DNA of 42,467 nucleotides from the IMG/VR virus record IMGVR_UViG_3300005471_000029, positions 1 through 42,467 of that record; one strand, given 5' to 3'. The position numbers and the translations under genes are program-made. The notes under the pieces were generated by a model. The model worked only from the letters and a program-made list of their open reading frames with translations. It was not told the origin of the DNA and did no database searches. Of the stretch, positions 2,797-39,810 are shown in pieces. Source of the DNA: a virus. Every line of letters begins with the position of its first letter. Within the stretch, counting starts at the first letter, position 1.

Positions 2797-2987
2797 CGCC
2801 CCCTCCTCCCGTAGCGCCGCGTCGCCGCCGCGGGTTTTGTCCAGATTCCCCCTGGAGAGCCGGGCGGTGGCGCCCGCTGCGGTTGCCGGCCCCGCTCCGC
2901 AACCGAACCCGAGCGGCGCGCGGTTTTGTCAACCGGCGGCCGCGCGGGCAGTCCCGGCAACGGCGGCTCGTTCTGCCGGCGCGTCAT
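2793..2987 (-). CDS. hypothetical Pro/Arg-rich mini-protein
   Basis: A 64-residue ORF rich in Pro, Arg and Gly with no recognisable domain. Its main support is position: its ATG overlaps the upstream gene's stop as ATGA at 2984-2987, and its stop overlaps the TSCPD start as ATGA at 2793-2796. It thus sits exactly in the translational-coupling chain that runs from dnaB. Composition alone would not support it, and it could be only a spacer ORF. Confidence 0.45.
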   Translation of the reverse strand: MTRRQNEPPLPGLPARPPVDKTARRSGSVAERGRQPQRAPPPGSPGGIWTKPAAATRRYGRRGR

Positions 2988-3763
2988 GCCGCCCTTTTGC
3001 CGGCGATCGGCAGCAGCAATTCGGGCTGCCGGACGGCGGACCGGCGCTCGCGCGTTCGGCCGGCGCCGCGGCGCTCGGCCGCGAGGCGTTGGCGGCGCAA
3101 TCGGTTGAGCCGTTCGGCGGCCTCGTTCGCCCAGCGCGGCGGGTCGTCCTCGAGCAGCGCGACGGTCAGCTCCTCGACCTTGTCGGGCGTCACCCGCGCC
3201 GCCTCGCGGATCGCGTTGCCGAGCCAGGCGTCGCGTTTCTCCTTGGCGCTGAAGACCTTGGGGGCGCCAAAGGCGCCGGCACGCGCGACAGCGCGTGGAG
3301 GATCACCCTCGCCCTCTTGCTTGGCGATCACCCGCAGCGGAGGGGTAAGGGGAGGTATCTTCTCTGAGTCTGGTGCGTTGCATTGCGTTGCACCGCGTTG
3401 CACCGGCGTTGCCGCTGTTCCCTGGCGACCGCGGCAGGCGCGCGACCGCTCGGTCGAGCCGGGATCCTCGCGCTGCGGGTTGCGCCGTTCCCAGGCGGCG
3501 AGGCGCTCGCCGACGACCATGCCGCGCCGTTTGAACTCGTCGAGCACGGCACCGACCTGGCCCTCCTCGAGGTCGAGAAAGGTCGCGGCGTCCTCGATCG
3601 AAAACCGCGCGATCGCGCCTTCCTCGGCGGCCTGGTTCGCGCAGGCCATCAGCATCGAATAGAGCGACCAGACATCGCCCGGCCGGACCCCCGCTCGCCG
3701 ACCGATGCTCAGCCATTTGAGATCCGTCGGCGCCTCGTTCCACATGCGGCACCATTGCTTCAT
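2984..3763 (-). CDS. putative phage replication initiator / replisome organiser (lambda O-like position)
   Basis: 259 residues from the ATG at 3763, which overlaps the dnaB stop as ATGA; an upstream in-frame extension is ignored because it lies inside dnaB. Residues 1-85 look like a winged-helix region (WNEAPTDLKWLSIGRRAG, VWSLYSMLMACANQA, GAVLDEFKRRGMV). The middle is low-complexity and encoded by phased direct repeats. The C-terminal part is basic and helical (NAIREAARVTPDKVEELTVA, ERLNRLRRQRLAAERR). By context this is an origin-binding or helicase-loading partner of DnaB. The family was not identified with certainty. The repeats inside the gene recall lambda O, which contains its own origin. 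Confidence 0.6.
   Translation of the reverse strand: MKQWCRMWNEAPTDLKWLSIGRRAGVRPGDVWSLYSMLMACANQAAEEGAIARFSIEDAATFLDLEEGQVGAVLDEFKRRGMVVGERLAAWERRNPQREDPGSTERSRACRGRQGTAATPVQRGATQCNAPDSEKIPPLTPPLRVIAKQEGEGDPPRAVARAGAFGAPKVFSAKEKRDAWLGNAIREAARVTPDKVEELTVALLEDDPPRWANEAAERLNRLRRQRLAAERRGAGRTRERRSAVRQPELLLPIAGKRAA
3375..3413. repeat. iteron-like direct repeats inside the replication gene (candidate origin)
   Basis: Three perfect copies of GCGTTGCA start at 3375, 3385 and 3395, exactly 10 bases apart, and a fourth (GCGTTGCC) starts at 3406. One-helical-turn phasing next to dnaB is what is expected of initiator-binding iterons. The repeats encode the low-complexity centre of the initiator-like protein. 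Confidence 0.45.
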
Positions 3764-5256
3764 TGCCCCCACTCCCCCTTTGCCAGGTTGGAAAACCGCG
3801 TCGTCGCGTGGTCGAAATGCAGCTTCACGACGCCGACCGGGCCGTTGCGCTGCTTGGCGATGATGATCTCGGTCTTGTTGCGGACAGCGGCGAGCTTGTC
3901 GCGCCAGGCGGCCCATTTCGGATCCTCAGCGGGCTTCTCGGCGTCCGCCGGGTCGGGCTCGCGCAGGTAGTACTCCTCGCGAAAGATGAACATGACGACG
4001 TCGGCGTCCTGCTCGATCGAGCCGGAGTCGCGCAGGTCGCTGAGCAATGGCCGCTTGTCGTCGCGGCTCTCGACGGCGCGCGACAATTGCGACAGCGCCA
4101 GCACCGGGACGTCGAGCTCCTTGGCGAGCGCCTTCAGGCCGCGGGTGATCTCGGAGACTTCCTGCACCCGGTTCTGCTCGCCGCGGCCGTTGGGGCGCGT
4201 CGGCTGCAGCAACTGCAGATAGTCGACGACGACGAGGGCGAGCCCGCGCTGGCGCTTGAGACGCCGCGCCCGCGCCCGCAACCCCGGCACCGACAAGGCC
4301 GGGGTGTCGTCGATCCACAACGGCAGGCCGCCGTAATCCTGCTGCGCCTTGAGCAGCTTGTCGAACTGGCCCGAGTTGAGATCGCCGCCCCGGCGCACCC
4401 AGTCGGAGGGGATCTTGGTGACGCCGCCGAGCACGCGAGCGCCGAGCTGCGCGTCGGCCATCTCGAGCGAGAAAAACCCGGCAGTCTCGCCGTTGCAGGC
4501 GGCGTTGAACGCAAGGTCGGTGGCTAACGCGGTCTTGCCCATGGCCGGGCGGCCGGCGAGGATCACCAAATCGGAGCGGTGGAAGCCGCCCAACAGCCGG
4601 TCGAGGTCCTCGAACCCGGTCGGCACCCCGACGATCTTGGCGTCCCGCTTGTAAGCCGCTTCTGCCATGACGATCGCGCGGTGCATCGCCGCGCCGATCG
4701 GTGCAAAGCCGGACCCGGCCAGGCCGGTCTCGGCGAGCTCGTAGAGCTGCGCCTCGGCGCGCTCGATCTGGCCGGCAGCGGCAAAGGGACCCGCCGGATT
4801 GTCGAGATCGGCGCTGTAGGCGGCGTCGACGACCTCGCCGCCGAGCATGATCAATCGCCGGCGCAGGTAAAGGTCGCGCACCGCTCGCGCATAATCCTCG
4901 ATGTGGAGGAGGATCGCGCCGGCGCCGGCGAGCTGCCCGAGATAGCGGTCGCCGCCGATCATCTTGAGCGCCTCGTCCGCGGCGAACACCCCCTTGAGGG
5001 TGACCGGACTGGCTTCCTGGCCGCGCTCGATCAGCTTGGCGACCGCCTCGAAGATGCGGCCGTGCATGGCGTTGCCGAAGTGCTCCGGCTTGACGAGCTC
5101 GCCAACCCGCTCGAACGCGGTGTTGTCGATCAGGAGCGCGCCGAGCAAGGCCTGCTCGGCCTCGGTGTTGTAGGGCGGCTGGCGCTCGAGGCGGTCGGGG
5201 GGGCCGCGCAGCGGCGTGAACGGCAGGATGTTCGGGGGGGCTTCGCCGTCAGGCAT
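3760..5256 (-). CDS. dnaB: replicative DNA helicase DnaB
   Basis: A full-length 498-residue hexameric 5'-3' helicase. The N-terminal DnaB domain begins at PPYNTEAEQALLGALL (about residue 27). The RecA-like core has Walker A GRPAMGKT (235-242), FFSLEM (261-266), Walker B LVVVDYLQLL (341-350), LALSQLSRAVESR (387-399) and DLRDSGSIEQDADV (407-420). A charged insertion around 433-450 (DPADAEKPAEDPKW) precedes the C-terminal KQRNGPVG motif. Its start is overlapped by a small ORF and its stop by the initiator-like gene, so the replication genes appear translationally coupled. It would unwind phage DNA at the replication fork. Confidence 0.97.
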   Translation of the reverse strand: MPDGEAPPNILPFTPLRGPPDRLERQPPYNTEAEQALLGALLIDNTAFERVGELVKPEHFGNAMHGRIFEAVAKLIERGQEASPVTLKGVFAADEALKMIGGDRYLGQLAGAGAILLHIEDYARAVRDLYLRRRLIMLGGEVVDAAYSADLDNPAGPFAAAGQIERAEAQLYELAETGLAGSGFAPIGAAMHRAIVMAEAAYKRDAKIVGVPTGFEDLDRLLGGFHRSDLVILAGRPAMGKTALATDLAFNAACNGETAGFFSLEMADAQLGARVLGGVTKIPSDWVRRGGDLNSGQFDKLLKAQQDYGGLPLWIDDTPALSVPGLRARARRLKRQRGLALVVVDYLQLLQPTRPNGRGEQNRVQEVSEITRGLKALAKELDVPVLALSQLSRAVESRDDKRPLLSDLRDSGSIEQDADVVMFIFREEYYLREPDPADAEKPAEDPKWAAWRDKLAAVRNKTEIIIAKQRNGPVGVVKLHFDHATTRFSNLAKGEWGQ

Positions 5257-5759: not shown

Positions 5760-6161
5760 TTACGCGCCTCTGAGGTTGCGGACGTCGTCGCGCAATCCGG
5801 CGATGTCGGCCCTGATCTCGTTGCGGTCGGCGCGCAATTCGGCGCGCAATTCGGCGAGCTCGTCGGCGAGCCGCTCGAACCGGTCGGCCAGCCTGTCCAG
5901 ACGGGCGTCGAGCTCGCTGGCCGGCGGAAAGACAAAGTCGCGAAACCCCGGCGCCAACGCCATGAGCTGGTCGAACCGCGCCGGGGTCCAGCCGCGGCCG
6001 CCGCGCAATTGCTTGGCCATGCTCGGGCTGATCGCGAGATCGCGGGCGATGCGTTTGTCCTTGCTCGCCCCGGCATAGTTAATCTCGAGGAAGGCGCCCG
6101 CCCGTCGGGCAATGCCGCTGCCCAATTCGCCAGTTTCATTGCCCGCCCGCGATCTCGCCAT
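5760..6161 (-). CDS. putative HTH plus coiled-coil DNA-binding protein
   Basis: A 133-residue protein. Residues 34-65 contain an HTH-like segment (DKRIARDLAISPSMAKQLRG, then WTPARFDQL), as in phage regulators that read the bacteriophage-CI/XRE fold. Residues 85-130 are a heptad-rich coiled coil (LDARLDRLADRFERLADELA, ELRAELRADRNEI, IAGLRDDVRNL), suggesting an oligomer. The ATG at 6161 shares two bases with the divergent SciP-like gene's possible ATG at 6160. It would be the first gene of the leftward replication operon. Confidence 0.66.
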   Translation of the reverse strand: MARSRAGNETGELGSGIARRAGAFLEINYAGASKDKRIARDLAISPSMAKQLRGGRGWTPARFDQLMALAPGFRDFVFPPASELDARLDRLADRFERLADELAELRAELRADRNEIRADIAGLRDDVRNLRGA

Positions 6162-6564
6162 GCCGCGAACCGCCGGCGATTATTCGCCGATGGTCGATAT
6201 CGGGGTTCCTCGCGACTTCGTTCGCTGGTCGGCGCGCCGCAAGGCGGCGGTGCTCGTCGCGATCGCCGGCGGCAGAACAACGGTCGAGGAGGCGTGCCGC
6301 CGCTGGCAATTGTCGCGCGAGGAGCTCGAGGCCTGGCAATCGGCCTATCGGCTCCATGGCGTGGTCGGGTTGTACGCGACCCGGATCCGTGTCTACCGCG
6401 ACGCGGCGCGGCGCGCCCGGGAGCGTCGCGAACCGGTTCATGCCGAGCTGCCCTCGACCTCGTCGGGCTGCTCGAAGAGCGAGCCGATATCGGCGCCGGT
6501 GACCCGGGCGAAGCGCCCCACCAGCTCGTGCGGCAGCTTTGAGCGCGTCTCGTATTTCTCGTAG
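6160..6564 (+). CDS. SciP/DUF1153-like transcriptional regulator
   Basis: 134 residues from the ATG at 6160; an alternative ATG is at 6190 (MVDIGVP), and neither has a clear Shine-Dalgarno. The core (FVRWSARRKAAVLVAIAGG, VEEACRRWQLSREELEAWQ, HGVVGLYATRIRVYRD) closely follows the DUF1153 family, which includes the Caulobacter CtrA inhibitor SciP; known members are about 90 residues. The last 45 residues here are extra and lie antisense to the downstream XRE gene (6438-6564), so they may not be conserved. The gene stands alone on the + strand among leftward genes. A role in tuning host CtrA-dependent transcription is inference. Confidence 0.75.
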   Translation: MPRTAGDYSPMVDIGVPRDFVRWSARRKAAVLVAIAGGRTTVEEACRRWQLSREELEAWQSAYRLHGVVGLYATRIRVYRDAARRARERREPVHAELPSTSSGCSKSEPISAPVTRAKRPTSSCGSFERVSYFS

Positions 6565-6689
6565 CGCTTGGGCGGGATGCCGAGCGCCTGCGCCATCTTC
6601 TCCTGGGTCATGCCGCTCGCCACGCGCCACGTCTTGACGCGTGTGCAAAAGGCCCGGTCGAACTCCGCGACCCCGGAATGATCGTACAT
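6438..6689 (-). CDS. XRE-family repressor A (leftward partner of the switch)
   Basis: 83 residues from the ATG at 6689; a 12-residue upstream extension from 6725 would run across operator O1 and is disfavoured. It is almost all one XRE domain: FCTRVKTWRVASGMTQEKMA, then QALGIPPKRYEKYETRSKLP and VGRFARVTGADIGSLFEQP. It is a paralogue of the divergent XRE protein at 6780, with about 45% identity by eye and the shared pattern YExYExRSxLPH. Operator O1 ends 11 bases before the start, so autoregulation is likely. No good Shine-Dalgarno is visible, so a leaderless transcript is possible. Confidence 0.85.
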   Translation of the reverse strand: MYDHSGVAEFDRAFCTRVKTWRVASGMTQEKMAQALGIPPKRYEKYETRSKLPHELVGRFARVTGADIGSLFEQPDEVEGSSA

Positions 6690-6700
6690 ACGCGAAAATT

Positions 6701-6717
6701 TCCGACAATTTGTCGGG
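6701..6717. promoter_or_regulatory. operator O1
   Basis: TCCGACA-ATT-TGTCGGG, a 17-bp dyad with 7-base arms that match except at the outermost base. It starts 11 bases upstream of the leftward XRE gene's ATG. Confidence 0.75.
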
Positions 6718-6752
6718 ATAGTCAAGCGACCGAAAAGCGGTCGGGTGAAAAC

Positions 6753-6769
6753 CCCGACAATCTGTCGAC
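6753..6769. promoter_or_regulatory. operator O2
   Basis: CCCGACA-ATC-TGTCGAC, the weakest copy of the same 17-bp dyad. It ends 10 bases upstream of the rightward XRE gene's ATG, mirroring the O1 arrangement. O1 and O2 centres are 52 bases apart. Confidence 0.68.
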
Positions 6770-6779
6770 AATCCTATGG

Positions 6780-7130
6780 ATGCCGACCGAAACCCGTTCG
6801 GAGTTCGAGGCGAATTTCATCGCGCGCGTGAAACGGGCGCGGAAGGCGACCGGATGGAACCAGCGGGAGATGGCCGAGGCGCTGCATGTCCCGCTCGACA
6901 ATTACGAGACCTATGAAAGGCGCTCGCCGCTGCCGCATTACCTGATCGCGCAGTTCGCTCGGGTGGCGCGCGTGCCGATCGAGTACCTCTTCACCGGGCG
7001 AATGCCGCGCAAGGCTGTGCCCGGGAGCGACCGACCCTCAGACGGCCTGGTCGAGCTGGCGGGGCCGTCGACACGGCGTCGCAAGCGGGCGCGCGCCGTC
7101 TCCGACAAAATGTCGGAAACGCTCTTGTAA
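6780..7130 (+). CDS. XRE-family repressor B (rightward partner of the switch)
   Basis: 116 residues from the ATG at 6780. The longer frame from 6678 would cross both central operators and is disfavoured. The XRE domain spans residues 5-70 (FIARVKRARKATGWNQREMA, LHVPLDNYETYERRSPLPHY, FARVARVPIEYLFTGR), followed by a basic tail absent from its paralogue. O2 lies just upstream; operator O3 is embedded in its last codons (encoding SDKMSE) and O4 begins at the base after the stop. No Shine-Dalgarno is obvious. It probably represses both divergent promoters and the rightward operon. Confidence 0.87.
   Translation: MPTETRSEFEANFIARVKRARKATGWNQREMAEALHVPLDNYETYERRSPLPHYLIAQFARVARVPIEYLFTGRMPRKAVPGSDRPSDGLVELAGPSTRRRKRARAVSDKMSETLL
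7101..7117. promoter_or_regulatory. operator O3
   Basis: TCCGACA-AAA-TGTCGGA, a perfect 7-base dyad with 3-base spacer, inside the 3' end of the rightward XRE gene. Confidence 0.78.
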
Positions 7131-7147
7131 TCCGACATTCTGTCGGA
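7131..7147. promoter_or_regulatory. operator O4
   Basis: TCCGACA-TTC-TGTCGGA, a second perfect copy, immediately after the XRE stop codon. Its centre is 30 bases (about three helical turns) from O3 and it lies 38 bases before the first gene of the rightward operon. The -35/-10 elements of that operon were not confidently identified. Confidence 0.78.
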
Positions 7148-7185
7148 TAGCCTCCCCCTCTTAACCCAAGAGGGGGTTGGTTTCC

Positions 7186-7437
7186 GTGCTGTCGTCGCCC
7201 CATTCGGATGCTCTCGCCGAGCTGGATACCGGGCTGCGCGACGAGCTCGCCCGGCGGCTGTCGCTGATCGAGAGCGATCTGTCGCCCGAGCGCGCCGCCG
7301 CGCGCTTGAAGTCGCAAGTCGCTGCGCTCGGCACCCCCCCGCCCGATCTTCATCTGACGCGCCATCTTCTGCTGACGACCGCCGCCATCGCGCTCGCCGC
7401 GCTCGTCGCGCTCGATCGTCGGGCGGCGACGCGATGA
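7186..7437 (+). CDS. hypothetical small membrane-type protein, first gene of rightward operon
   Basis: 83 residues from the GTG at 7186, chosen because AGAGGGGG lies about 9 bases upstream; a TTG at 7177 is the alternative. The N-terminal 50 residues are helical and charged (LRDELARRLSLIESDLSPER). The C-terminus carries a hydrophobic helix (LLLTTAAIALAALVAL, residues 63-78) and an Arg cap. Family not recognised. The stop overlaps the next gene as ATGA. Its position right after O3/O4 makes it the promoter-proximal gene of the operon. Confidence 0.65.
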   Translation: MLSSPHSDALAELDTGLRDELARRLSLIESDLSPERAAARLKSQVAALGTPPPDLHLTRHLLLTTAAIALAALVALDRRAATR

Positions 7438-7848: not shown

Positions 7849-9582
7849 ATGCAAGCCATGCAAGCAACCGCCGAGCCGCCAGGTGGGCTGAGCCCTGGGC
7901 GGGATATCGTCTATCTGCGCTGGGACCGGCTGCACGAGTCGCCGCTGAACCCGCGCCGGCACCGCGATCCGGAGACCTTGCGCGAATTGATGGACTCGCT
8001 CGAACGGCGCGGGCTCCTCGAGAATTTGGTGGCGCGGCCGGCAGCGGAGCGCTCGACGCATTTCGAGATCATCGCCGGCAGCCGGCGCCACCAGGCGATC
8101 GCGGAGCTGGTCAAAACCGGCCGCTGGCCGCGCGAGGCGGTGATCCCGGTGAGGATCCTGGACGCCACCGACGTCGAGCTCGTCGAGCACGCGATGCTCG
8201 AGAACATCCAGCGCGAGGATCTGACGCCGCTCGAGGAAGCCGACGGCGTCGCCTGGATGTTCGACCAGGGCATCCCGATCGAGGAGATCGCCGCCCGGCT
8301 GGACAAGCGTGACCGCTGGGTCAGGCAGCGCCTGCAGTACAACAAACGGCTCGCGCCCGAAACCCGCCGCCGCTTCGAAGCGGGCGAGCTCAACCGCAGC
8401 CAGGCGCAGGCCTTTACCATCGGCGAGTTTCCCGAGCAGGTAGCGCTCCTCAAACAGGCGATATTGCATGGCTACCGGGCGCCGGAGATCCGCCGCATCC
8501 TATTGATGCGCACGGTCCCGCTGTCGCGGGCAAAATTCGACCGAGCCCGGTACCGAGGGCACGTCAGGCGGGATTTCTTCTTCGACGACGACGAGGAGCA
8601 CGAGCACGCCGAAGATCTGGGCGAATTCCGCCGGCTGCAATTGGAATGGTGCGAAGAACAGCGCGCCCTATTGGGCAAGACCTGGTCGTGGGTCGAGCTG
8701 CAGACCGGCGGCTGGGTCGACACCGCGAGGTTCGACAAGGACCAGCCGCCCGCGGCCGGCGGCACGATCATCCACCTGCGCGACGATCTGCGGATCGAGA
8801 TCCACACCGGTCTCGGGCGCCGAGTGGAATCCAAAGGGGCCCCGTCTGGAATCCGCAGGGACCCGGGATCGGGGGCGGTCAACGGTGCGGGAGCGGCCGC
8901 CCGATCCGATGGCCCAGCCCTTGGGCGCGCGGCGCTGACCAAAGCGCACATGGTCTGGGCGCGCCAGGAGAAGTCGCGCCGCCTGCAATTGGCGATCGCG
9001 GAGGACTGCGCGGTCGCCGTCTCGCTGGCGATCCTGGGGCTCCTCGGCGCGCGCGAGGTGCGGATCCACGAAGGTTTTGAAGGCGCGCCCGACGACCGGT
9101 TCGACAATCCGGCGCTCGACGAGTTGATCAAAACGCGGCTCGCGCCGATCGGCCTCGAATACGGCCAAGTTTACCAGGACACGCATCGCATGGCGCCCGC
9201 GTTTGGCGAGTTGATGACGATGTCCGTCGTCGACCTTATGGCCTTGTTCGCCGCGCTGACCGCGCCGCGCTTTGCCAGCTGGCCCGGCTATACCCCGGAG
9301 CTCGGCGACAGCGAGCTCGCCTGCCGGGTCGCCGATGTCGCCCTCAAGGAGGACGGGCTGCTGTTCCCGCTGACCCCCCAATACCTCGAGGCGCTGAGCC
9401 GCGAGCAATTGGTGCGCGTCGCCCGCGACGCCGGCGTCGCGGAACCGGTCGGCGGCCTCAAAAAATCCGAGATGATCGACGCGATCCTGCTCGATCCTGG
9501 CCGCGACGCGGCGTGGTTCCCGCCCGAGCTCAAATTCGCGCCCAAGGTCGAGATCGAAGCCGAGATCCAGCGCGCCGCATGA
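7849..9582 (+). CDS. ParB/Spo0J-family DNA-binding protein
   Basis: 577 residues from the ATG at 7849, chosen for its GGGAG at 7839-7843; an in-frame ATG at 7837 is possible. The ParB N-terminal nuclease-like domain covers about residues 15-125 (LHESPLNPRRHRDPETLREL, IIAGSRRHQAI, ENIQREDLTPLEEADG). The HTH follows (IPIEEIAARLDKRDRWVRQR). The C-terminal 400 residues are not assigned, apart from a helix-rich end (VAEPVGGLKKSEMIDAILL). Plasmid and phage relatives act in partitioning or as regulators and nicking proteins. No ParA is in the window, so partition is not shown. Confidence 0.88.
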   Translation: MQAMQATAEPPGGLSPGRDIVYLRWDRLHESPLNPRRHRDPETLRELMDSLERRGLLENLVARPAAERSTHFEIIAGSRRHQAIAELVKTGRWPREAVIPVRILDATDVELVEHAMLENIQREDLTPLEEADGVAWMFDQGIPIEEIAARLDKRDRWVRQRLQYNKRLAPETRRRFEAGELNRSQAQAFTIGEFPEQVALLKQAILHGYRAPEIRRILLMRTVPLSRAKFDRARYRGHVRRDFFFDDDEEHEHAEDLGEFRRLQLEWCEEQRALLGKTWSWVELQTGGWVDTARFDKDQPPAAGGTIIHLRDDLRIEIHTGLGRRVESKGAPSGIRRDPGSGAVNGAGAAARSDGPALGRAALTKAHMVWARQEKSRRLQLAIAEDCAVAVSLAILGLLGAREVRIHEGFEGAPDDRFDNPALDELIKTRLAPIGLEYGQVYQDTHRMAPAFGELMTMSVVDLMALFAALTAPRFASWPGYTPELGDSELACRVADVALKEDGLLFPLTPQYLEALSREQLVRVARDAGVAEPVGGLKKSEMIDAILLDPGRDAAWFPPELKFAPKVEIEAEIQRAA

Positions 9583-17030: not shown

Positions 17031-17408
17031 ATGCCTGAAGGGGAGCTGACCCTCGCCGAGGTCGCCGCCCGGCTCAAGATGGCGGAGCTCACCTTGCGGC
17101 GGTTTTTGAACCGCATCGGGTTCCGCGCCATCCAGCTGGGCGACCGCTCGCTGATGTTCACCGAGGCTGACTACCTCGAAATTCGAGAGGCCCGCCGCCA
17201 ATGCCGCTCACGCTCGTCGCGCCCCGCGAAGGAAGATCCCGCAACTGGTCGATCCGCGGCACTGTCCGAGGAAGCTATATCAGCGAAACTACGGGCGTTG
17301 CGAGCCGAGAGCTCGCCGAAGCGATCCGCATCAAAAGGGAAGGGCAGCTCCTCGAAGAAAGCGTCTTCGGGGCGCGGGCAAGTCGTCGCTTTGCCGAAGC
17401 GGTCATAG
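17031..17408 (+). CDS. excisionase-like MerR/AlpA-type HTH protein
   Basis: 125 residues from the ATG at 17031. Residues 4-55 form a small winged-helix typical of excisionases (LTLAEVAARLKMAELTLRRF, GFRAIQLGDRSLMFTEADYL). The remaining 70 residues are Ser/Lys/Arg-rich and overlap the integrase gene for 208 bases in another frame. The functional domain ends just before the integrase ATG. Excisionases bend attachment DNA and steer the integrase towards excision. Confidence 0.75.
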   Translation: MPEGELTLAEVAARLKMAELTLRRFLNRIGFRAIQLGDRSLMFTEADYLEIREARRQCRSRSSRPAKEDPATGRSAALSEEAISAKLRALRAESSPKRSASKGKGSSSKKASSGRGQVVALPKRS

Positions 17409-18334
17409 AATACACCGAGGCGACAAAGCCGCGCGGCACGCAGCGCGATATGCTGATCGGCCGGGTGCGCCGCGACGGTTCGGTGGCGCCTTGTCTGGTC
17501 GGCGATTTCGGCGGCCGGTTGTGCAGCGCGATCGACCAGGCGGCGGTCGACGCGGTCGTCCGCAAGCGCTTCGCCGGCAAGGCGCCGGGCACGATCCAGC
17601 GCGATCTGTTGACCCCGCTGACCGCGGTGTTGCGCTTTGCCGCAAAGCGCAAATGGTGCGACGTGCCGATCTTCGAGCGGCCGCGGTACGACGACCGGCG
17701 CCGCCGCTGGGCGAATTACGACGAGGCCGACCGGCTGCTCGCCGCGGGCGCGCCGCATCTGCGCCCGCTGATCGCCTTTCTGATGCTGAGCGGCGCGCGC
17801 ATGTCCGAGGCGCTCGGCCTCGAATGGGCCGATGTCGATCTCGGCGCGCGCTGGCTGGTGTTCCGCGACACCAAACGCGGCAAGCGCGGCGGCGCCGGCG
17901 GCGAGGACCGCGGCGTCGCGATCCATCCGCAATTGGCGCTTGTCCTGGCCAACCTGCCGCCGGGACCAAACGGTGATCGAATCGGCAACGTATTTCTGAC
18001 CAACCGCGGCCGGCCCTACGCCGACAAGGACAACGGCGGTGGCCAGATCAAGACCGCATGGCGCGGCGCCGTGCGGCGCGCCGGCCTCGCCGATCTGCGG
18101 CCGCACGATCTGCGGCATACCTGCGCGACCTGGCTGACCATGGCCGGCGTCCACGAGCAGGTGCGCGACGAAATCATGGGCCACGCGTCGAGCGCCATGG
18201 GAAGGCGCTATTCGCATGTGCCGCGCCCGAGCCTGATCGAGGCGATCGACCGGCTGCCGCCGCGCGCCGTCGAGATCATGCCCCCCGCCCTGCCGGCGCC
18301 ACGCCCGGTATTGCGCCGCCGCGGGGTCCGGTGA
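17201..18334 (+). CDS. int: phage tyrosine integrase
   Basis: A 377-residue, full-length tyrosine recombinase. The N-terminal part includes an arm-binding-like strand region (RNWSIRGTVRGSYISETTG). The catalytic domain has Arg in LSGARMSEALGLEW (about 200), HDLRHTCATWL (about 302-312) and GHASSAMGRRYSHV with the nucleophile Tyr near 337. It integrates phage DNA at an att site; the tRNA-Thr segment at 24304 is the best candidate. Its 3' end is copied, diverged, at 19545-19764. The start lies inside the excisionase-like gene. Confidence 0.94.
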   Translation: MPLTLVAPREGRSRNWSIRGTVRGSYISETTGVASRELAEAIRIKREGQLLEESVFGARASRRFAEAVIEYTEATKPRGTQRDMLIGRVRRDGSVAPCLVGDFGGRLCSAIDQAAVDAVVRKRFAGKAPGTIQRDLLTPLTAVLRFAAKRKWCDVPIFERPRYDDRRRRWANYDEADRLLAAGAPHLRPLIAFLMLSGARMSEALGLEWADVDLGARWLVFRDTKRGKRGGAGGEDRGVAIHPQLALVLANLPPGPNGDRIGNVFLTNRGRPYADKDNGGGQIKTAWRGAVRRAGLADLRPHDLRHTCATWLTMAGVHEQVRDEIMGHASSAMGRRYSHVPRPSLIEAIDRLPPRAVEIMPPALPAPRPVLRRRGVR

Positions 18335-32307: not shown

Positions 32308-35300
32308 TCAAGCCACCTTCAAACGTTGCGGTTCGACGAGTCCGGTGCCGGATTTGCGGTTGATCTCGGCGAGGTGGGCGTTGCCGGTCTTGGCGTCGCC
32401 GGCGGCCTGCGCCTGGCCGCCCTGCGTCTGCTTGCGCAACGCCGCGAGCTCGTCGCGCATCGCCTTGAGCTCGGCGACGATGTTCGAGCCGTCATCCCTG
32501 GCCGCATGCTGCGCCAGCATGCGACCGGGCGACGGCAAGCGCGCCGGCATCTCCGGCAGGTCGGTACCGTCGGCGAAGGCCGGAATTTGCGGGAAGGGCA
32601 GGATCTTGGCGCCGCCGGGCTGGTCGATGATCTCCGGGCCGCCCATGCCGACTTTCGTCCAGGCGCCCGCTTTCGGCAGCATCCATTCGGGGCCGCGCTC
32701 GCCGACCAGGATGCGGCCGGGGGGCGTGCCTGCAGCGCCGGCGGCGAAGGCCGGCCCAGCCTCCGGTTGAGGTGGGGGCGCGGGCAGGTTCGCGAGCTCG
32801 TGGGTCTGCGCCGCGGTGCGAACCGCCTGGATCTCCTCCGGGCTGGCGGTGCCGGCGGTGTAGGCCGCGACCATCTGGGTGATGCCGGGGGTGCCGTAAG
32901 GGTTGCCGAGATAGAACCCGCTGGCGTTGACGATCGCGGCGGTGCGCGTGATCTCGCCGGAATTGACCGCCGCGACGACCGCCGCGACCTCGTCGAGGGT
33001 CGCGATGCCGGCGACGTAATCGGCCGCCATCTGGGTGATGCCGGGTGTTCCCGGACCGAAATCGACCGGGGCTGCGGCCGCGGCCGCCGTCGGGTCGGCG
33101 GCAGCGGGTGCTGTGGCTGAGGCCGTGCCCGGAGGAAAGGTGACGCCGACCGATGCCAGCACGCTGGTGAACTGCGCGGGGTCGGTAACGCTGGTCAGCG
33201 CATCGTGCACCGGCGGGGTGAGCCCGGAGAGGTTCTGTGCGATCGACAGCTCGAGCTGACGGGTCGCTTCCGCCGCCGATCCGAACTTCGCGGTGATTTT
33301 CCCGAGCGGCCCCGCATAGGCGGCGATGATCCCGTCGCGCGTGCCGTCCTGGATGTTCAAGGCGCCGGCGATGGTGCCGCCCGTCGCCTGCTGGATCATC
33401 TGGCTGAATAGCGCCACCGGCAAACCGATCTCGGCGACCGTCCGATCGCTCTTCGCGACGCCGCCGGAGCGCACGTCCGAGATCTGGCCGGTGGCCAGGT
33501 CGATGGTGCCACCCGACGCGTTGTTGGGCGGCTTCGGGCCGAAGAGCCCGCCGAACAGCCCGCCCCCGATGCCGCCGAGCAGCCCGCCGAGGATCGCGCC
33601 GATCGGCCCGCCGACGATCGCCCCGATGACGGAGCCGCCGATCGCCCCGATATTCGAGCCGATCGACCCGCCGAGCGAATGGCCGCCGACCAGGCTGTTG
33701 AGCAGGCCGCCGACCAGCGAGCCGATGCCGGCGCCGGCGAGAGCGTCCGTCAGAGTGAGGGCGCCGAACACCGCGCCCTCGCCAGCGCTCGAGGCAAAAC
33801 CAAGGGTGCCGCCGAGCGAGTCGACGATGCCGCCGACGCTTCCCGAGAGGCCCAATGCATCCGACGCGACGCTCGTTATCGTCGGGCCGCCGAGCGTGCC
33901 GGAGACGGTGCTGATCCCGCCGACCGCCTGGGCGGCGGTATCGAGGGTGCCGTCGGCAAACGCCGCAACCGGCTTGCGGGGCGGCCGCTGCGGGAAGGGC
34001 AGGATCTTGGCGCCGCCCGGCTGGTCGATGATCTCGGGGCCGCGTTTGCCGACCTGGGTCCAGGATCCTGCTTTTGGCAGCATCCATTCCGGTCCGCGCT
34101 CGCCGACGAGGATCGCGCCGGGTGGCGTCATTGAGGTGCCCGCGGCAAAGCCCAGCACCGCGTGTCCTACGGCGGTCAGAGGCGCCGTTATTTCGCCGGT
34201 CTGGAGCGCCTTGCGGACCGCCTGGATCTCGGCCGGGTTGCCGCCCCCGGCATTGACGGCAGCGAGCATTTGCGTGATGCCGGGGGTGCCGGCGGGGTTC
34301 CCGAGATAGGAGCCGCTGGCGGTGACGATATCGGCGGTGCGCGTGATCTCGCCGGAATTGACCGCCTTGACGACGTCGTCGATCTCGGCCTGGGTGGCCG
34401 TGCCGGCGACGTAATCGGCCGCCGATCGGGTGATGCCGGGTGTCCCTTGCGAGGCGGAGCCGCCGACCGCGGCCGCGGCAACGGCGGTCTGCGCGGCCGA
34501 TACCGCGGCGTTCGTCACGGTGCCGGTGCCGGAGGCCTCGGTCGTCGCATTGGCTTGAACCGCAGGGAGCGCCGCGGTGATCTGCTTGCGCAGGTCGGCG
34601 GTTTGCGGCCCCTGGCCATAGGCCGCGATCGAGGCCGCCAGCGCCGCCTGCGCGGTCGTCGCGAGGACCGCGAGCTGCGTGCCCGAGACCATGGTTCCGG
34701 CCGCGGTCGCCGCGGCGAGAGCGGCCTGATAATCGGCGGTGCTCGCGGTGACCTGCGCGGCCGGGGTCAGGCCGGCGAGCTGGCCGTCCTTCAGCGACTT
34801 CGCCAATGCCGCGATGCCCTGGATGCCGGTCGCGAGGTTGACGAGCGCCGCCGTCGCGTCGGTCGCCGCGGTGCCGGTGTCGAGGATCGCCTGCGCCATC
34901 GCGGCGATCTCGGGGTTGGATTGCCCGAGCTCGTCGACGACCTTTTGCAGCTGCGTCGCGGTCAAGGGGCTGAGGACCGCTTGCGCCTGCTGCACCTCGA
35001 GCTGCGCGATCTTGGCGGCCGTCGTCGCGTCGCCGCCGAGCCCGATGGCGCTGGCGTCGCGGGTGTTGGCGGCAAACTGCTTTGAGACCGCCGCCAGCTG
35101 GTCGACAAAATCGACGGTGCCCTGCGTCGTGGCGAGCGCCTGGTCGAGGGTCGTGCCGAAATCCGCCTTCAGCCGCTTGGTCGCCTCGGCGAGCGCGGCG
35201 TTGATCGGATCGAGGCTCAACCCGAATTGGGTGGCCTGGTCGGTCAATCCGGAAAAGAGCGTGTTGATCTGGTCGAGCGCTTGGGCGAAGGGGCCGATCG

Positions 35301-38300
35301 AGTTGCTCGCGCTCTCGACCGAGGAGAAGGCGCTGTCGGCGGCGGTCTTGATCGCGTCGTAGGTCTTGGCGAACGCGACCGCGGCCGCGAGCTGCGAGGG
35401 GTCGGTGACGTGGGCGAGCACCGTCTTCAAGGTGCCGGTGACGTTCGAGAGGTTTTGCAGGATCGCCTGCTCGATGCCCGAGATCGCCGATTGCGCGTCG
35501 GAGAATTTCTGCGTGATGTTGCCGAGCGGCCCGGCATAGGACGCCTTGACGCCGTCGGTCCCGGCCTGGACGTTGAGCGCGCCGCCGGCGAAGGACGCGC
35601 CGGTGCCCTTGAGCGACGTCGCCAGATCCTTCGAGAACTGCGCGACCGCCGAGGAGATGCTGTTGACGGTCGAGTTGTTCTGCGTGTTGCCCGACGACTG
35701 GAACCCCGAGATCCCGCCGGTGCCGAGGTTGACAAAGTTGCCCGAGGAGAAGGTGCTCTTCGCCGGCCCGAGGAGCCCGCCGCCGGCGCCGCCGAGAAGG
35801 CCGCCGACGAGGCCGCCGATCAAGGTGCCGATGCCGGGGATGATCGAGCCGATCAGCGCGCCGGCGATCGCCCCGCCAGCGGACCCGATCGTGCCGTTGG
35901 TCGAATTGCCGCCGATCAGCGAGTTGGCCAACTCGCCGGCGCCGAACCCGAGACCGACCCCGCCGAGAGCGCTGGTGAGCGTCGTCGAACCGAAGAGGCT
36001 CCCCTCGGTAACGCCGGTGACGCCTGCGGCGTCGGCCGGGTTCGCGATCGTTGCGGCGATGTCGCCTTGGGAAAGCGGCGTCGCGAAGCCGAGGCTGCCT
36101 CCGATGTTGTTGTTGAGGAACCCCGAGATGCCGCCCGCGCCCGCGCCGAAGAGGCCGCCGGAGCCGCCGAAGAGGCCGCTCGACGATGCCAGCGACGCGC
36201 CGCTCGCCACGGTGCCGAAGCTGAAAGTGCTGCTCGTCGACGCGCCGGCGAGCGGCGTCGAGGTGCCCGGCACCAGAAACGGGTTGGCGCTGGTCTCGTT
36301 CGCGACCTGGGCACCCCCCTCGTTGACGACGACGTTTTCGACGTTCTGGGTGTTGGCGGTGTTGGTGGTGCTGCCGCCGAAGAGGGCGCCGAGCCCGCCG
36401 AACGAGCCGAGCTGCTGGCCGACCTGGGGGAAGCCGAGCGCGCTGGCGAGGCTACCGAGCAGCGGCTTGATGAAGAGCGCGTCGGCCAGCTGGGTGACGA
36501 TGTTTTTCAGGACCGATTTGATCCGCGCGCCCCAGTCGTCGATCTTTTTCCCGTCGAACGCGTCTTCGATCGCCGTCGTCAGGGTGCTGTCGATCGTGCC
36601 GGCGATGTTCGAGATCGCCCCGTTGAGGTTCGATTGCGCCGCTTGCGCCTCGGCCAGTTTGACGGTGAGGTCGGCGACCGCGGTCTTCTGATCGAGAAAA
36701 GCCTGATAGGTCGCGCGCGCTTCGTCGGTTTCGAGTTTTGCGAGATTGGGGAATTTCTCGACGAATTCCTGCTTGGCGCGCAGGATCGTCACCTGGCGCC
36801 CCACCTCCTCGCTGGTCTGGCCGACGAGGCTCAGCTCGAGCTGCAGGATCTGGGTGTCGTCGCGGCCCTGCTGCAATTCGTGGCCGAGCGCGATGCTTTC
36901 CTGCTGGACGGCGTTGCGCTTGGCCTGCGCCAATGCGACCTCGGTCTGCGCCTTGGCGTCCTTGACCAGGCTCGCGGTGTACTCGATCTCGGCGGCGCTG
37001 CCCGACTGCAGCGCCACGAGGTTGGCGGCCATCGCCTTGTTGAGCGAGTCGTGGGTCTGGGCGGAGGCCTGCGCGGCGAGCTTGGCGTCATTCTCGGCCG
37101 CCGCGCCTTTGAGCGCGGCGTCGGCGACCTTTTGCTGGCGATCGAGGACCGGATCGGTCGCGGCGATCTGCTGTTCGCCGGCGAGCCGCGCCGCCGCCGC
37201 CTGCTGTTTCAGCGCGGTGATCGTCGCTTGCTGGATCTCAGCGTTCTTCCCGACCACCGTGCCATAGCGGTTATAGGTCTCGATCGCCGCCTTTTGCTGC
37301 GCCTCGGCGGCGAGACCCGCGGCCTCGCTCTGGCCATAGGCGGCAGTGGATTTCTGGATGCCGGCGGTCTCGAAATCCTGCGCCTTGATCGCCTTGTCGA
37401 TGGCGATCGCGTTGCGCTCGTAGACCTCGGCGACCTGGGCCTCGACGATCAGATTTTGATGCTTGGCATCGAGCGGCAGTTTCGCCGCCTCCGCCTCGGC
37501 GCGGTCGCGGACGATCTTGGCCTCTTGCTCGACGCCGACGAGCTTGTCGGCCGAGAGGTTGCGCGCGATCTCGGCCTCGCGCTCCTTCAGCGCCTTGGTC
37601 TGCTCGTCGATGCTGCCCGGGGTGACGCCGAAGATCTGCGGTGTTGCGCCGGCGGCCGTTGTCGCTACAGCAGGATTCGGCGCCGCCGGTCCCGATACCG
37701 TCGGGGCGCGCCGCAAGGTGACGTCGCCGGCGTTGTAGTAGGAGAGCCCGACCTGGTTGCTGCCGGTATTGCCGGAGAGCACCTGGATCTGGGTCTGCCC
37801 GCCGGCCGTGCGGATCTCGCCGGTGGCGAAGCCGACATGCCCGCCGGTCTGACCGGCGCCGCGGCCGTTCGCGATGACAGCGAGATCGCCGCGCTGCAGA
37901 TCGCCGGCGGCGACGCCGGTGCCGTAATTGAGAAAATCGGTCGCGATGTTGCTGCCGATGCCCGGGATGCCCTTGCGCGCCAGCACGGCGTTGGCAAAGG
38001 CGGCGCACCATGCCGCGGTCGCCGGGTCGAGACTGCTCGCCTGCTGGATGAACTGGCGCAGCTGCGGGTTGGCCGCGCCCTGCCCGAGAAACCCCGCGGC
38101 GGTGTCGGTGATGCTCGCGTTCGGCGCGTAAGTGACGCCGAGCGGCGGCGGCGCTGCAGTGGCGGGCAGAATTCCGACACCGGCGCCGGCGACCCGCTGA
38201 TCGCCTCCCGGCGGCAGATTGGTCCCGACCGGCAATTGGCTGACATTGCCATAGAGCGGCGGCGCGCCCGCCGACTGGCCGAGCATGGCGGCCGGCAATT

Positions 38301-39810
38301 TGGCCTTGAGCTGGTCGATCTTGTCGGCCGCGAGCTGGTAGAGGTCGCCGATGCCCTTGATCGCGCCCTCGATCACCGTGACGATGCCGGAGATCGTGTC
38401 GACGATCCCCTTCGCGAGGAACAGCGTCGCCGCAAAGACCGCCTGGATGCCCTTGCTGTCGGACGCCTTGTCGAGAAAATCCTTCCACGACGCGGCGAAC
38501 CCCGTGGTGGCGTTCTTGGCGTCGCTGAACGAATCCTTGAGCGGCGCGATGCGCGAGCGCAGCAGCTCGAAGACCGCCTGCTGCTGCTGCAAGGAGCCGG
38601 TCAGGCGCGCCGCTTCGGTGAAATGAGCGGCCTCGCCGTCGCGCAATACCCCGAAAGATTGGGCGAGCTTGAGGGTCGGGTCGAGCCCGCCCTCGAGCGC
38701 GGCTTTGAGCTTGTCGGTCCATTCGACCGTGTGGCTGCCATCGTCGGCGAGCGCCGAGAGCCGGTGCGCCAGATCGGTGATCTGCGGGATCGCCTGCGGG
38801 TTGATCACCGGCGACAGACGAAGCGCGTCGATGGCCTTTCGCGCATCGGCGGCGGCGACCCCGCTGTCGCGCAATTGCCGTTCGAATTTTAGGAGGTCCT
38901 GCGCGCTGGCGAGGCTGGCGGTTCCCAAGGTCGCCGCCCCGACGCCGAACTGGCGCAGGCTCTGCTCGGTCTGCGCGGCGCGGTTGACGAGCAATGCGAT
39001 ACCGCCGGCGACGGCGACGATCGCCGCGACGATCGCCGTCGTCGGGGTGATGAATTTGGCGAGGATGCCGATGACGCTGCCAAACGCCGAGGTCAGCCCG
39101 CCGGGCCCCGATGCGGCGTAGCTGAGCTGCGAGATGTGCTGCCCGAGGATCTGCAGCGGCGGCGCGCCGATGATCGCCTGCTCGGTGACCGAGCGCAGGA
39201 TGTGAAAGGCCTCTTGGCCCTGCGTCGACAATGCCTGGTGCGCCTCGGCAGCGTCGTGGGCCGCTTTGCCGGCCTTGCCGAGCGCGGTGCTGTTGTCATT
39301 CGCCGCCAGCGAGACCGCCTTCTGGGCATCGGCGACCTTCTGCTGGGCCGCGGCGAGGAGGCCGGTCGCCTGCGCGGCGTTGGGTCCGCCCGCCATGATG
39401 ACCTTGTTCAGGTCATCGACATTCTTCTGCGCCTTCTGCAATGCGGCGCCGAACGGGTCGACGGCGCGCGTGACAGCGGTCAGGATCTGCTGCTGTTTCG
39501 CCAGGCTGGTGACGATGCGATCGGTCGATGTCGCCAGGACGTCGTTCGCGGCGGCCGCGGCCGCGACCTCGCCATTGCCGCCCTGGCTAGCGACAGCGGC
39601 CTTAGCACCCTGGCTTGCAACCGCATCCTTGCGCGCCGCGGTCTGTTTTCTCGCGGCGTCGACCACCGTCGCGGTGGTCTTGGTCTCGGATTGCTCGACC
39701 GCCTGGTTCGAGGAGATGACCTGTTGCGCGGCGGTCTTGAAATCGTCGGCGCCTTTCTTGGCGCCCGACGCGTCGAAGACAATGCGGGTGACGGCGTCGT
39801 CTGCTGCCAT
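32308..39810 (-). CDS. tail tape measure protein with CHAP/NlpC-like peptidase domain
   Basis: A 2500-residue protein, GGGGAGG eight bases before its ATG. The N-terminal third has long Ala/Gln-rich coiled coils and a hydrophobic segment near 260 (ITPTTAIVAAIVAVAGGIAL). Residues about 570-705 resemble a CHAP/C40 amidase: AAWCAAFANAVLARKGIPG with the Cys and GGHVGFATGEI with the His. The C-terminal half holds two copies of a module: Gly-zipper stretch, VTDP, ADYVAGxAT, GERGPEWMLPKAG, GGAKILPFPQ. Tape measures set tail length; about 2500 residues would suit a tail of several hundred nm. It is preceded by tail chaperones, as expected. Confidence 0.93.
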   Translation of the reverse strand: MAADDAVTRIVFDASGAKKGADDFKTAAQQVISSNQAVEQSETKTTATVVDAARKQTAARKDAVASQGAKAAVASQGGNGEVAAAAAANDVLATSTDRIVTSLAKQQQILTAVTRAVDPFGAALQKAQKNVDDLNKVIMAGGPNAAQATGLLAAAQQKVADAQKAVSLAANDNSTALGKAGKAAHDAAEAHQALSTQGQEAFHILRSVTEQAIIGAPPLQILGQHISQLSYAASGPGGLTSAFGSVIGILAKFITPTTAIVAAIVAVAGGIALLVNRAAQTEQSLRQFGVGAATLGTASLASAQDLLKFERQLRDSGVAAADARKAIDALRLSPVINPQAIPQITDLAHRLSALADDGSHTVEWTDKLKAALEGGLDPTLKLAQSFGVLRDGEAAHFTEAARLTGSLQQQQAVFELLRSRIAPLKDSFSDAKNATTGFAASWKDFLDKASDSKGIQAVFAATLFLAKGIVDTISGIVTVIEGAIKGIGDLYQLAADKIDQLKAKLPAAMLGQSAGAPPLYGNVSQLPVGTNLPPGGDQRVAGAGVGILPATAAPPPLGVTYAPNASITDTAAGFLGQGAANPQLRQFIQQASSLDPATAAWCAAFANAVLARKGIPGIGSNIATDFLNYGTGVAAGDLQRGDLAVIANGRGAGQTGGHVGFATGEIRTAGGQTQIQVLSGNTGSNQVGLSYYNAGDVTLRRAPTVSGPAAPNPAVATTAAGATPQIFGVTPGSIDEQTKALKEREAEIARNLSADKLVGVEQEAKIVRDRAEAEAAKLPLDAKHQNLIVEAQVAEVYERNAIAIDKAIKAQDFETAGIQKSTAAYGQSEAAGLAAEAQQKAAIETYNRYGTVVGKNAEIQQATITALKQQAAAARLAGEQQIAATDPVLDRQQKVADAALKGAAAENDAKLAAQASAQTHDSLNKAMAANLVALQSGSAAEIEYTASLVKDAKAQTEVALAQAKRNAVQQESIALGHELQQGRDDTQILQLELSLVGQTSEEVGRQVTILRAKQEFVEKFPNLAKLETDEARATYQAFLDQKTAVADLTVKLAEAQAAQSNLNGAISNIAGTIDSTLTTAIEDAFDGKKIDDWGARIKSVLKNIVTQLADALFIKPLLGSLASALGFPQVGQQLGSFGGLGALFGGSTTNTANTQNVENVVVNEGGAQVANETSANPFLVPGTSTPLAGASTSSTFSFGTVASGASLASSSGLFGGSGGLFGAGAGGISGFLNNNIGGSLGFATPLSQGDIAATIANPADAAGVTGVTEGSLFGSTTLTSALGGVGLGFGAGELANSLIGGNSTNGTIGSAGGAIAGALIGSIIPGIGTLIGGLVGGLLGGAGGGLLGPAKSTFSSGNFVNLGTGGISGFQSSGNTQNNSTVNSISSAVAQFSKDLATSLKGTGASFAGGALNVQAGTDGVKASYAGPLGNITQKFSDAQSAISGIEQAILQNLSNVTGTLKTVLAHVTDPSQLAAAVAFAKTYDAIKTAADSAFSSVESASNSIGPFAQALDQINTLFSGLTDQATQFGLSLDPINAALAEATKRLKADFGTTLDQALATTQGTVDFVDQLAAVSKQFAANTRDASAIGLGGDATTAAKIAQLEVQQAQAVLSPLTATQLQKVVDELGQSNPEIAAMAQAILDTGTAATDATAALVNLATGIQGIAALAKSLKDGQLAGLTPAAQVTASTADYQAALAAATAAGTMVSGTQLAVLATTAQAALAASIAAYGQGPQTADLRKQITAALPAVQANATTEASGTGTVTNAAVSAAQTAVAAAAVGGSASQGTPGITRSAADYVAGTATQAEIDDVVKAVNSGEITRTADIVTASGSYLGNPAGTPGITQMLAAVNAGGGNPAEIQAVRKALQTGEITAPLTAVGHAVLGFAAGTSMTPPGAILVGERGPEWMLPKAGSWTQVGKRGPEIIDQPGGAKILPFPQRPPRKPVAAFADGTLDTAAQAVGGISTVSGTLGGPTITSVASDALGLSGSVGGIVDSLGGTLGFASSAGEGAVFGALTLTDALAGAGIGSLVGGLLNSLVGGHSLGGSIGSNIGAIGGSVIGAIVGGPIGAILGGLLGGIGGGLFGGLFGPKPPNNASGGTIDLATGQISDVRSGGVAKSDRTVAEIGLPVALFSQMIQQATGGTIAGALNIQDGTRDGIIAAYAGPLGKITAKFGSAAEATRQLELSIAQNLSGLTPPVHDALTSVTDPAQFTSVLASVGVTFPPGTASATAPAAADPTAAAAAAPVDFGPGTPGITQMAADYVAGIATLDEVAAVVAAVNSGEITRTAAIVNASGFYLGNPYGTPGITQMVAAYTAGTASPEEIQAVRTAAQTHELANLPAPPPQPEAGPAFAAGAAGTPPGRILVGERGPEWMLPKAGAWTKVGMGGPEIIDQPGGAKILPFPQIPAFADGTDLPEMPARLPSPGRMLAQHAARDDGSNIVAELKAMRDELAALRKQTQGGQAQAAGDAKTGNAHLAEINRKSGTGLVEPQRLKVA

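Follow-up and report, generated by a model that had tools for sequence, protein, structure and literature searches.

A putative 434-style immunity region with two divergent, paralogous small repressors in a virus record

The stretch of DNA analyzed here, referred to as the window, is the entire IMG/VR virus record IMGVR_UViG_3300005471_000029 (42,467 bases). It contains two divergent genes encoding XRE-type regulators, a left gene (L) and a right gene (R), whose positions are given in Table 1 together with those of the neighboring features. The products of L and R share 49% identity across 65 aa (E=1e-19) and have the motif YExYExRSxLPH in common, in agreement with the original prediction, which had described them as near-relatives. 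The AlphaFold2 model of L is a five-helix HTH domain (pLDDT 84), and a five-helix HTH domain is also predicted for R; the core is confident in both, and the tail of R has low confidence. The predicted folds match the structures of SinR, 434, P22 c2 and C-proteins. Pfam and PHROG searches with the 116 aa of R give HTH matches only, and no C-terminal peptidase domain was recognised in it. No Shine-Dalgarno sequence is evident by eye for either gene, as had also been claimed.

The L gene heads a putative leftward operon that continues with a gene encoding a protein with a coiled-coil tail and includes genes for a DnaB-like helicase and a replication initiation-like protein. On the other side, R is followed by a rightward operon that contains a gene encoding a ParB-like protein, and a tyrosine integrase gene is found further along, so the replication genes to the left and the operon to the right that had been described are both present. 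A DUF1153/SciP-like gene is convergent with L and overlaps it, being antisense to L and reading toward R, and no terminator was found on the way to R. This gene could be the source of an establishment transcript or of a host cell-cycle input. Its start codon and that of the coiled-coil gene, on the opposite strand, share one CATG (6159-6162), an arrangement that is absent in contig L005, a relative described below.

Some other observations concern the record as a whole. A SARP/BTAD-type transcriptional activator (PF03704 and PF00486), unusual for a phage record, is encoded at 466-1401 on the minus strand, and an open frame of 2500 codons without a Pfam match occupies positions 32308-39810 of the same strand. 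A SciP identity for the proteins P0001 and P0002 was ruled out by profile searches, which assigned them to different families.

Table 1. Positions of the genes, candidate operators and proposed promoter elements in the window.
Feature	Position	Strand	Evidence and remarks
Left XRE gene (L), Cro-position paralog	6438..6689	-	83 aa; ORF; HTH_31 (PF13560) and HTH_3 (PF01381) over cut-off; paralogy to R; AlphaFold2
Right XRE gene (R), CI-position repressor	6780..7130	+	116 aa; Phage_CI_repr (PF07022) over cut-off; phrog_2328 transcriptional repressor
DUF1153/SciP-like gene	6160..6564	+	PF06627, 70 bits; NF051866, 69 bits against a cut-off of 100; convergent with L, overlapping
Coiled-coil-tail gene, next in leftward operon	5760..6161	-	Conserved in L005 (53% over 113 aa)
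DnaB-like helicase, leftward operon	3760..5256	-	PF03796/PF00772; phrog_19
Replication initiation-like protein, leftward operon	2984..3916	-	phrog_3729 (3e-9)
ParB-like protein, rightward operon	7849..9582	+	PF02195 and TIGR00180 over cut-off
Tyrosine integrase	17201..18334	+	PF00589, 73 bits; phrog_1
Operator O1, TCCGACAATTTGTCGGG	6701..6717		Within proposed leftward promoter; equivalent position in relatives
Possible degenerate middle operator	6729..6745		10/12 matches to O1; overlaps dyad 6727-6743
Operator O2 (weaker), CCCGACAATCTGTCGAC	6753..6769		Overlaps proposed R promoter
Operator O3, TCCGACAAAATGTCGGA	7101..7117		Within R 3' end
Operator O4, TCCGACATTCTGTCGGA	7131..7147		Immediately past R stop; spacer of proposed rightward promoter
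Putative -35 TTGACT, leftward promoter	6720..6725	-	In 21/27 loci a TTG lies exactly 5 nt past O1
Putative -10 GAAATT, leftward promoter	6697..6702	-	Ends 7 nt before left ATG; proposed by analogy with TATAAC in L038/L050
Putative -35 GTGAAA, R promoter	6745..6750	+	ATGAAA equally spaced in L005
Putative -10 GACAAT, R promoter	6767..6772	+	Ends 7 nt before ATG; GACAATCCTATGGATG identical in L005
Putative -35 TTGTAA, rightward early promoter	7125..7130	+	L005 TTGAAT-O4-TAGCGT; L029 TTGACA
Putative -10 TAGCCT, rightward early promoter	7148..7153	+	L005 TTGAAT-O4-TAGCGT; weak consensus match

Dyads of 17 bp with the sequence TCCGAC-N5-GTCGGA, i.e., with a 6-5-6 geometry, flank R as well as the two start codons, as expected from the original proposal of one operator set. 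O1 and O2, which are imperfect dyads, lie between the two genes, and O3 and O4 form a second set (7101-7147) on the far side of R, at the inferred rightward promoter. The gap between the dyad and the ATG is 11 bp for L and 10 bp for R, matching the 10-11 bases reported before. The 15-mer core CCGACANNNTGTCGG is found with at most one mismatch at four sites of the whole 42-kb record, which are O1-O4 only. When up to two mismatches were allowed, the operator pattern gave 13 matches against 2.8 expected and a maximum of 9 among 100 shuffles. In a looser local test, 5 of 500 shuffles also yielded three similar dyads, and the window-local dyad statistics on their own are moderate. The operator layout is nevertheless secure, because over 20 further phage contigs show the same arrangement; a chance origin of the dyads was rejected from the shuffle test with two mismatches and from this repetition across relatives.

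A strict sigma-70 scan yielded no promoter in the window, and the proposed promoters are weak matches to the consensus. We infer that the TTG located 5 nt past O1 belongs to the leftward -35 element, which would place O1 in the spacer. Transcription of both L and R probably begins at the AUG or close to it, leaderless or near-leaderless starts being suggested because the distance from O1 to the ATG is constant. Directly past O4, at the 5' end of the proposed rightward message, there is a hairpin of nine pairs (CCCCCTCTT-AACCC-AAGAGGGGG; 7154-7176, plus strand), the sole terminator-like site in the region 6050-7300, where 0.9 are expected by chance.

The R protein carries the motif Y[EK]xYExRxxLPH, and the corresponding DNA pattern was found in 28 IMG/VR stretches, several of which are the same locus; the upstream region is readable in all but one. 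Once the truncated L029 and all duplicates were dropped, and the window, L005, L007 and L008 included, the set amounted to 27 readable loci. The R homologs usually have 84-116 aa (mostly 84-107 aa in the relatives), with L008 reaching 161 aa, and no further domains were recognised in the R proteins of the family. O1 is usually TAGGAC-N5-GTCCTA/T and starts 74-79 bp before the R start, although its automatic assignment handled L008, L040, L048 and L049 poorly. In 22 of these 27 loci, 10-12 bp separate O1 from the start codon of the left gene. A partial operator copy follows O1 after 23-24 bp in most relatives and after 28 bp in the window, and an O2-like site is clear at the R start in about a dozen relatives. 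Most loci also have two operators in tandem behind R, with a distance of 23-24 bp between them, or of 30-31 bp in the case of the window, L040 and L043. The window and the small YKQYETRSLLPH repressor family are therefore alike in R, in the operator layout, in the spacing of the left ATG from O1 and in the tandem operators behind R, but they differ in the operator sequence and in the left gene.

The left gene of 24 of the 27 loci belongs to another family (FRD.IELW...KWWQRD.IPAEWW) of carph-isopro-like, Cro-type proteins, 22 of which match the carph-isopro model (NF046037) at E<0.01, the two examined being below the curated cut-off. According to a profile comparison, this family shares no more than the HTH with the L pair (probability 39%). 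The window lacks a carph-isopro-like left gene and has an R paralog in its place, an arrangement found only in the window and L005 among the 27 loci. The simplest reading of this 24 to 2 distribution is that the carph-isopro-like partner was replaced by an R paralog. The L040 locus has a tandem pair of family repressors on the same strand (3477-4124, minus) between O1-like and O3/O4-like sites, a duplication that differs in kind from the window/L005 pair.

Scans of IMG/VR using single proteins, with L or DnaB as query, gave no match; tblastn with P0002 gave no match in the phage collection and only weak matches in plasmids; and a scan of genome contigs recovered nothing beyond distant XRE genes of Firmicutes, with no prophage in a named host. 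The left-pair and coiled-coil alignments, used as queries, retrieved the L005 contig only. Three further contigs obtained with a divergent-motif DNA pattern were dismissed as chance matches with no family match. No paper on the family was found in the open-access full-text literature via the operator sequences or YKQYETR, and both the repressor family and its paralog-pair variant appear to be undescribed.

Taken together, the gene layout, the operators and their conservation, the paralogy, the left partner of the relatives and the L005 residues discussed below make it likely that this locus is a temperate-phage immunity region of the 434 style, with an overall layout resembling those of lambda and 434, in which R would be CI-like, L would be Cro-like, and both would act as homodimers on the same operators. 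As the CI-equivalent, R would be flanked by an OR-like set (O1, the weak middle site and O2) on one side and by a tandem, OL-like pair (O3 and O4) on the other, and would hold both early promoters shut, i.e., the leftward promoter of L and then the replication genes, with O1 inside the -35/-10 spacer, and the rightward promoter of the ParB-like and other genes and later the integrase, whose spacer would be O4 itself. Since O2 overlaps the promoter of R, its occupation should shut R off. The L protein would be the Cro-equivalent, made early in lytic growth from the first gene of the replication operon and binding the operators of R as a separate homodimer; it would thus represent a repressor paralog in the slot of the carph-isopro-like protein of related phages. 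The lysogeny-type switch of two paralogous regulators that had been predicted is in this way supported by the layout, the operators, the paralogy and the flanking operons.

The roles could also be reversed, L being the maintenance repressor and R a Cro-like or establishment factor, given that both are single-domain proteins of similar size and fold with an operator at each start codon. We consider this improbable, because the member conserved throughout the family loci, with OR-like sites on one side and OL-like sites on the other, is R and not L, and because L heads the replication operon, in a slot whose protein is carph-isopro-like in 24 of 27 loci.

The closest arrangement to that of the window is found in L005 (IMGVR_UViG_3300027874_000251), which has the same gene order: coiled-coil, DUF1153, left XRE and right XRE. 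The DUF1153/SciP-like gene has no match in the other family loci, whose flanks are limited. The operator of the window has no match in L005, where O1, O3 and O4 keep their positions and the 6-5-6 geometry with the sequence TCCTAA-N5-TTAGGA (3 matches versus 0.12 expected); no O2 is recognisable in it. In 434 numbering, both L005 proteins have A33 and V38, each of which is absent from the 26 other family proteins, alongside the change of the operator inner half from GAC to TAA, and the window L and R keep S38 as the window operator keeps GAC. All four members of the two pairs have E32, a position occupied by K in 23 of the 26 others, and lack the usual Q28; in step with this, the operator outer half is TCC, not TAG, in both phages. 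The residues shared within L005 are enriched in the recognition region (Fisher p=0.035), a value that is weak alone and a covariation that comes from two phages. The matched recognition-helix residues of L005 support that both paralogs read one operator set.

At the 434-contact positions 29, 30 and 33, the window L has K, R and K and the window R has D, N and T, so they may differ in their preferences, and a different affinity order for O1-O4 would be expected, as for CI and Cro of lambda, which differ in their order of affinity across the operators. That the window proteins differ at contact positions 28-30 and 33 would also fit a situation in which O1-O4 are read by R, with L acting at other sites or being a decaying copy. 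This has a very low probability in our opinion, as argued by the finding that L is intact in both diverged phages (54% identity in the core) and by the L005 L recognition helix, which tracks the changed operator.

If L and R share operators, they could in principle do so as mixed dimers, as had been suggested originally; they have the same fold and 49% identity, and the imperfect dyads O1 and O2 indicate that the operators tolerate asymmetry. However, the region of the 434 dimer helix (residues 43-63) has diverged. In L005, the identity between L and R is 77% for residues 17-42 and 29% for residues 43-63, a more skewed ratio than in any of 378 R-R pairs; the corresponding values in the window are 58% and 38%, and 42% of the R-R pairs are equally skewed. 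In addition, both L proteins have lost the TG motif and the residue at position 58 that is otherwise mostly aromatic. This divergence favours separate homodimers, and there is little likelihood of a switch operated by heterodimers.

A tree built from the 67-column core unites the L proteins of the two phages (93/97), and likewise their R proteins (97/97), indicating that the L/R pair is older than the split between the window and L005 phages. This result disagrees with the earlier description of L and R as two copies of one regulator. The tree places L near L031/L040a, weakly, and an AU test of L and R as closest kin gave p=0.364, i.e., monophyly is neither rejected nor demonstrated. The four proteins of both pairs share E32 and R50, a possible sign of kinship or of a common operator.

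A more speculative scenario, which we regard as possible but doubtful, is that this lineage swapped Cro for a duplicated single-domain repressor, the copies having co-evolved with the operators and split their dimer interfaces, and that the SciP-like (DUF1153) gene adds an establishment or host-cell-cycle input that the relatives with a carph-isopro-like partner lack. If the 434-style reading of the locus is right, it would be a natural rebuilding of a phage switch, in which the operator positions and the spacing to the left start codon were kept and the Cro slot was filled by a repressor copy, and the 434 arrangement would have arisen in another phage group. The family supplies natural protein/operator pairs on which recognition-code rules could be tested, with TAGGAC, TGGGAC, TCCGAC and TCCTAA half-sites. 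Moreover, the repressors of the family have no recognisable peptidase domain, and their route of prophage induction becomes a testable question.

Some of these traits are known from the telomere phages. According to the parts of PMC4488713 that deal with them, immB of N15 and phiKO2 contains three OR and two OL operators and the cI and cro messages of PY54 immB are leaderless, resembling the operator set and the proposed message starts of the window; the same parts describe no repressor paralog acting as Cro, unlike what we propose for the window.

The closest parallel is the 434 immunity region (CI, Cro, OR1-3 and OL1-3), in which the two genes are also divergent paralogs separated by operators, with a further operator set on the other side of cI. 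The window likewise has a divergent HTH pair with shared putative operators, a second operator set past the repressor and, judging by gene order, a Cro-position gene at the head of a putative replication operon. The differences are that 434 CI has 210 aa and no C-terminal LexA-like domain for autocleavage or oligomerisation, a common feature of the 434/lambda type, was recognised in R, that the 17-bp operators of 6-5-6 geometry have another sequence, and that the OL-like pair abuts the stop codon of R. We measured 52% identity over 63 aa between 434 CI and Cro, a similarity equal to that of L and R, and thus the premise that CI and Cro differ strongly, which had been taken as a mark of novelty, does not hold for this textbook phage. 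Paralogous divergent repressors are known from 434, and what stands of the claim of an undescribed switch is the family and its variant, for which the open-access search found no paper. Among PDB entries, the one that the family profile matches best in sequence is the 434 repressor (E=9e-6); 434 Cro ranks lower.
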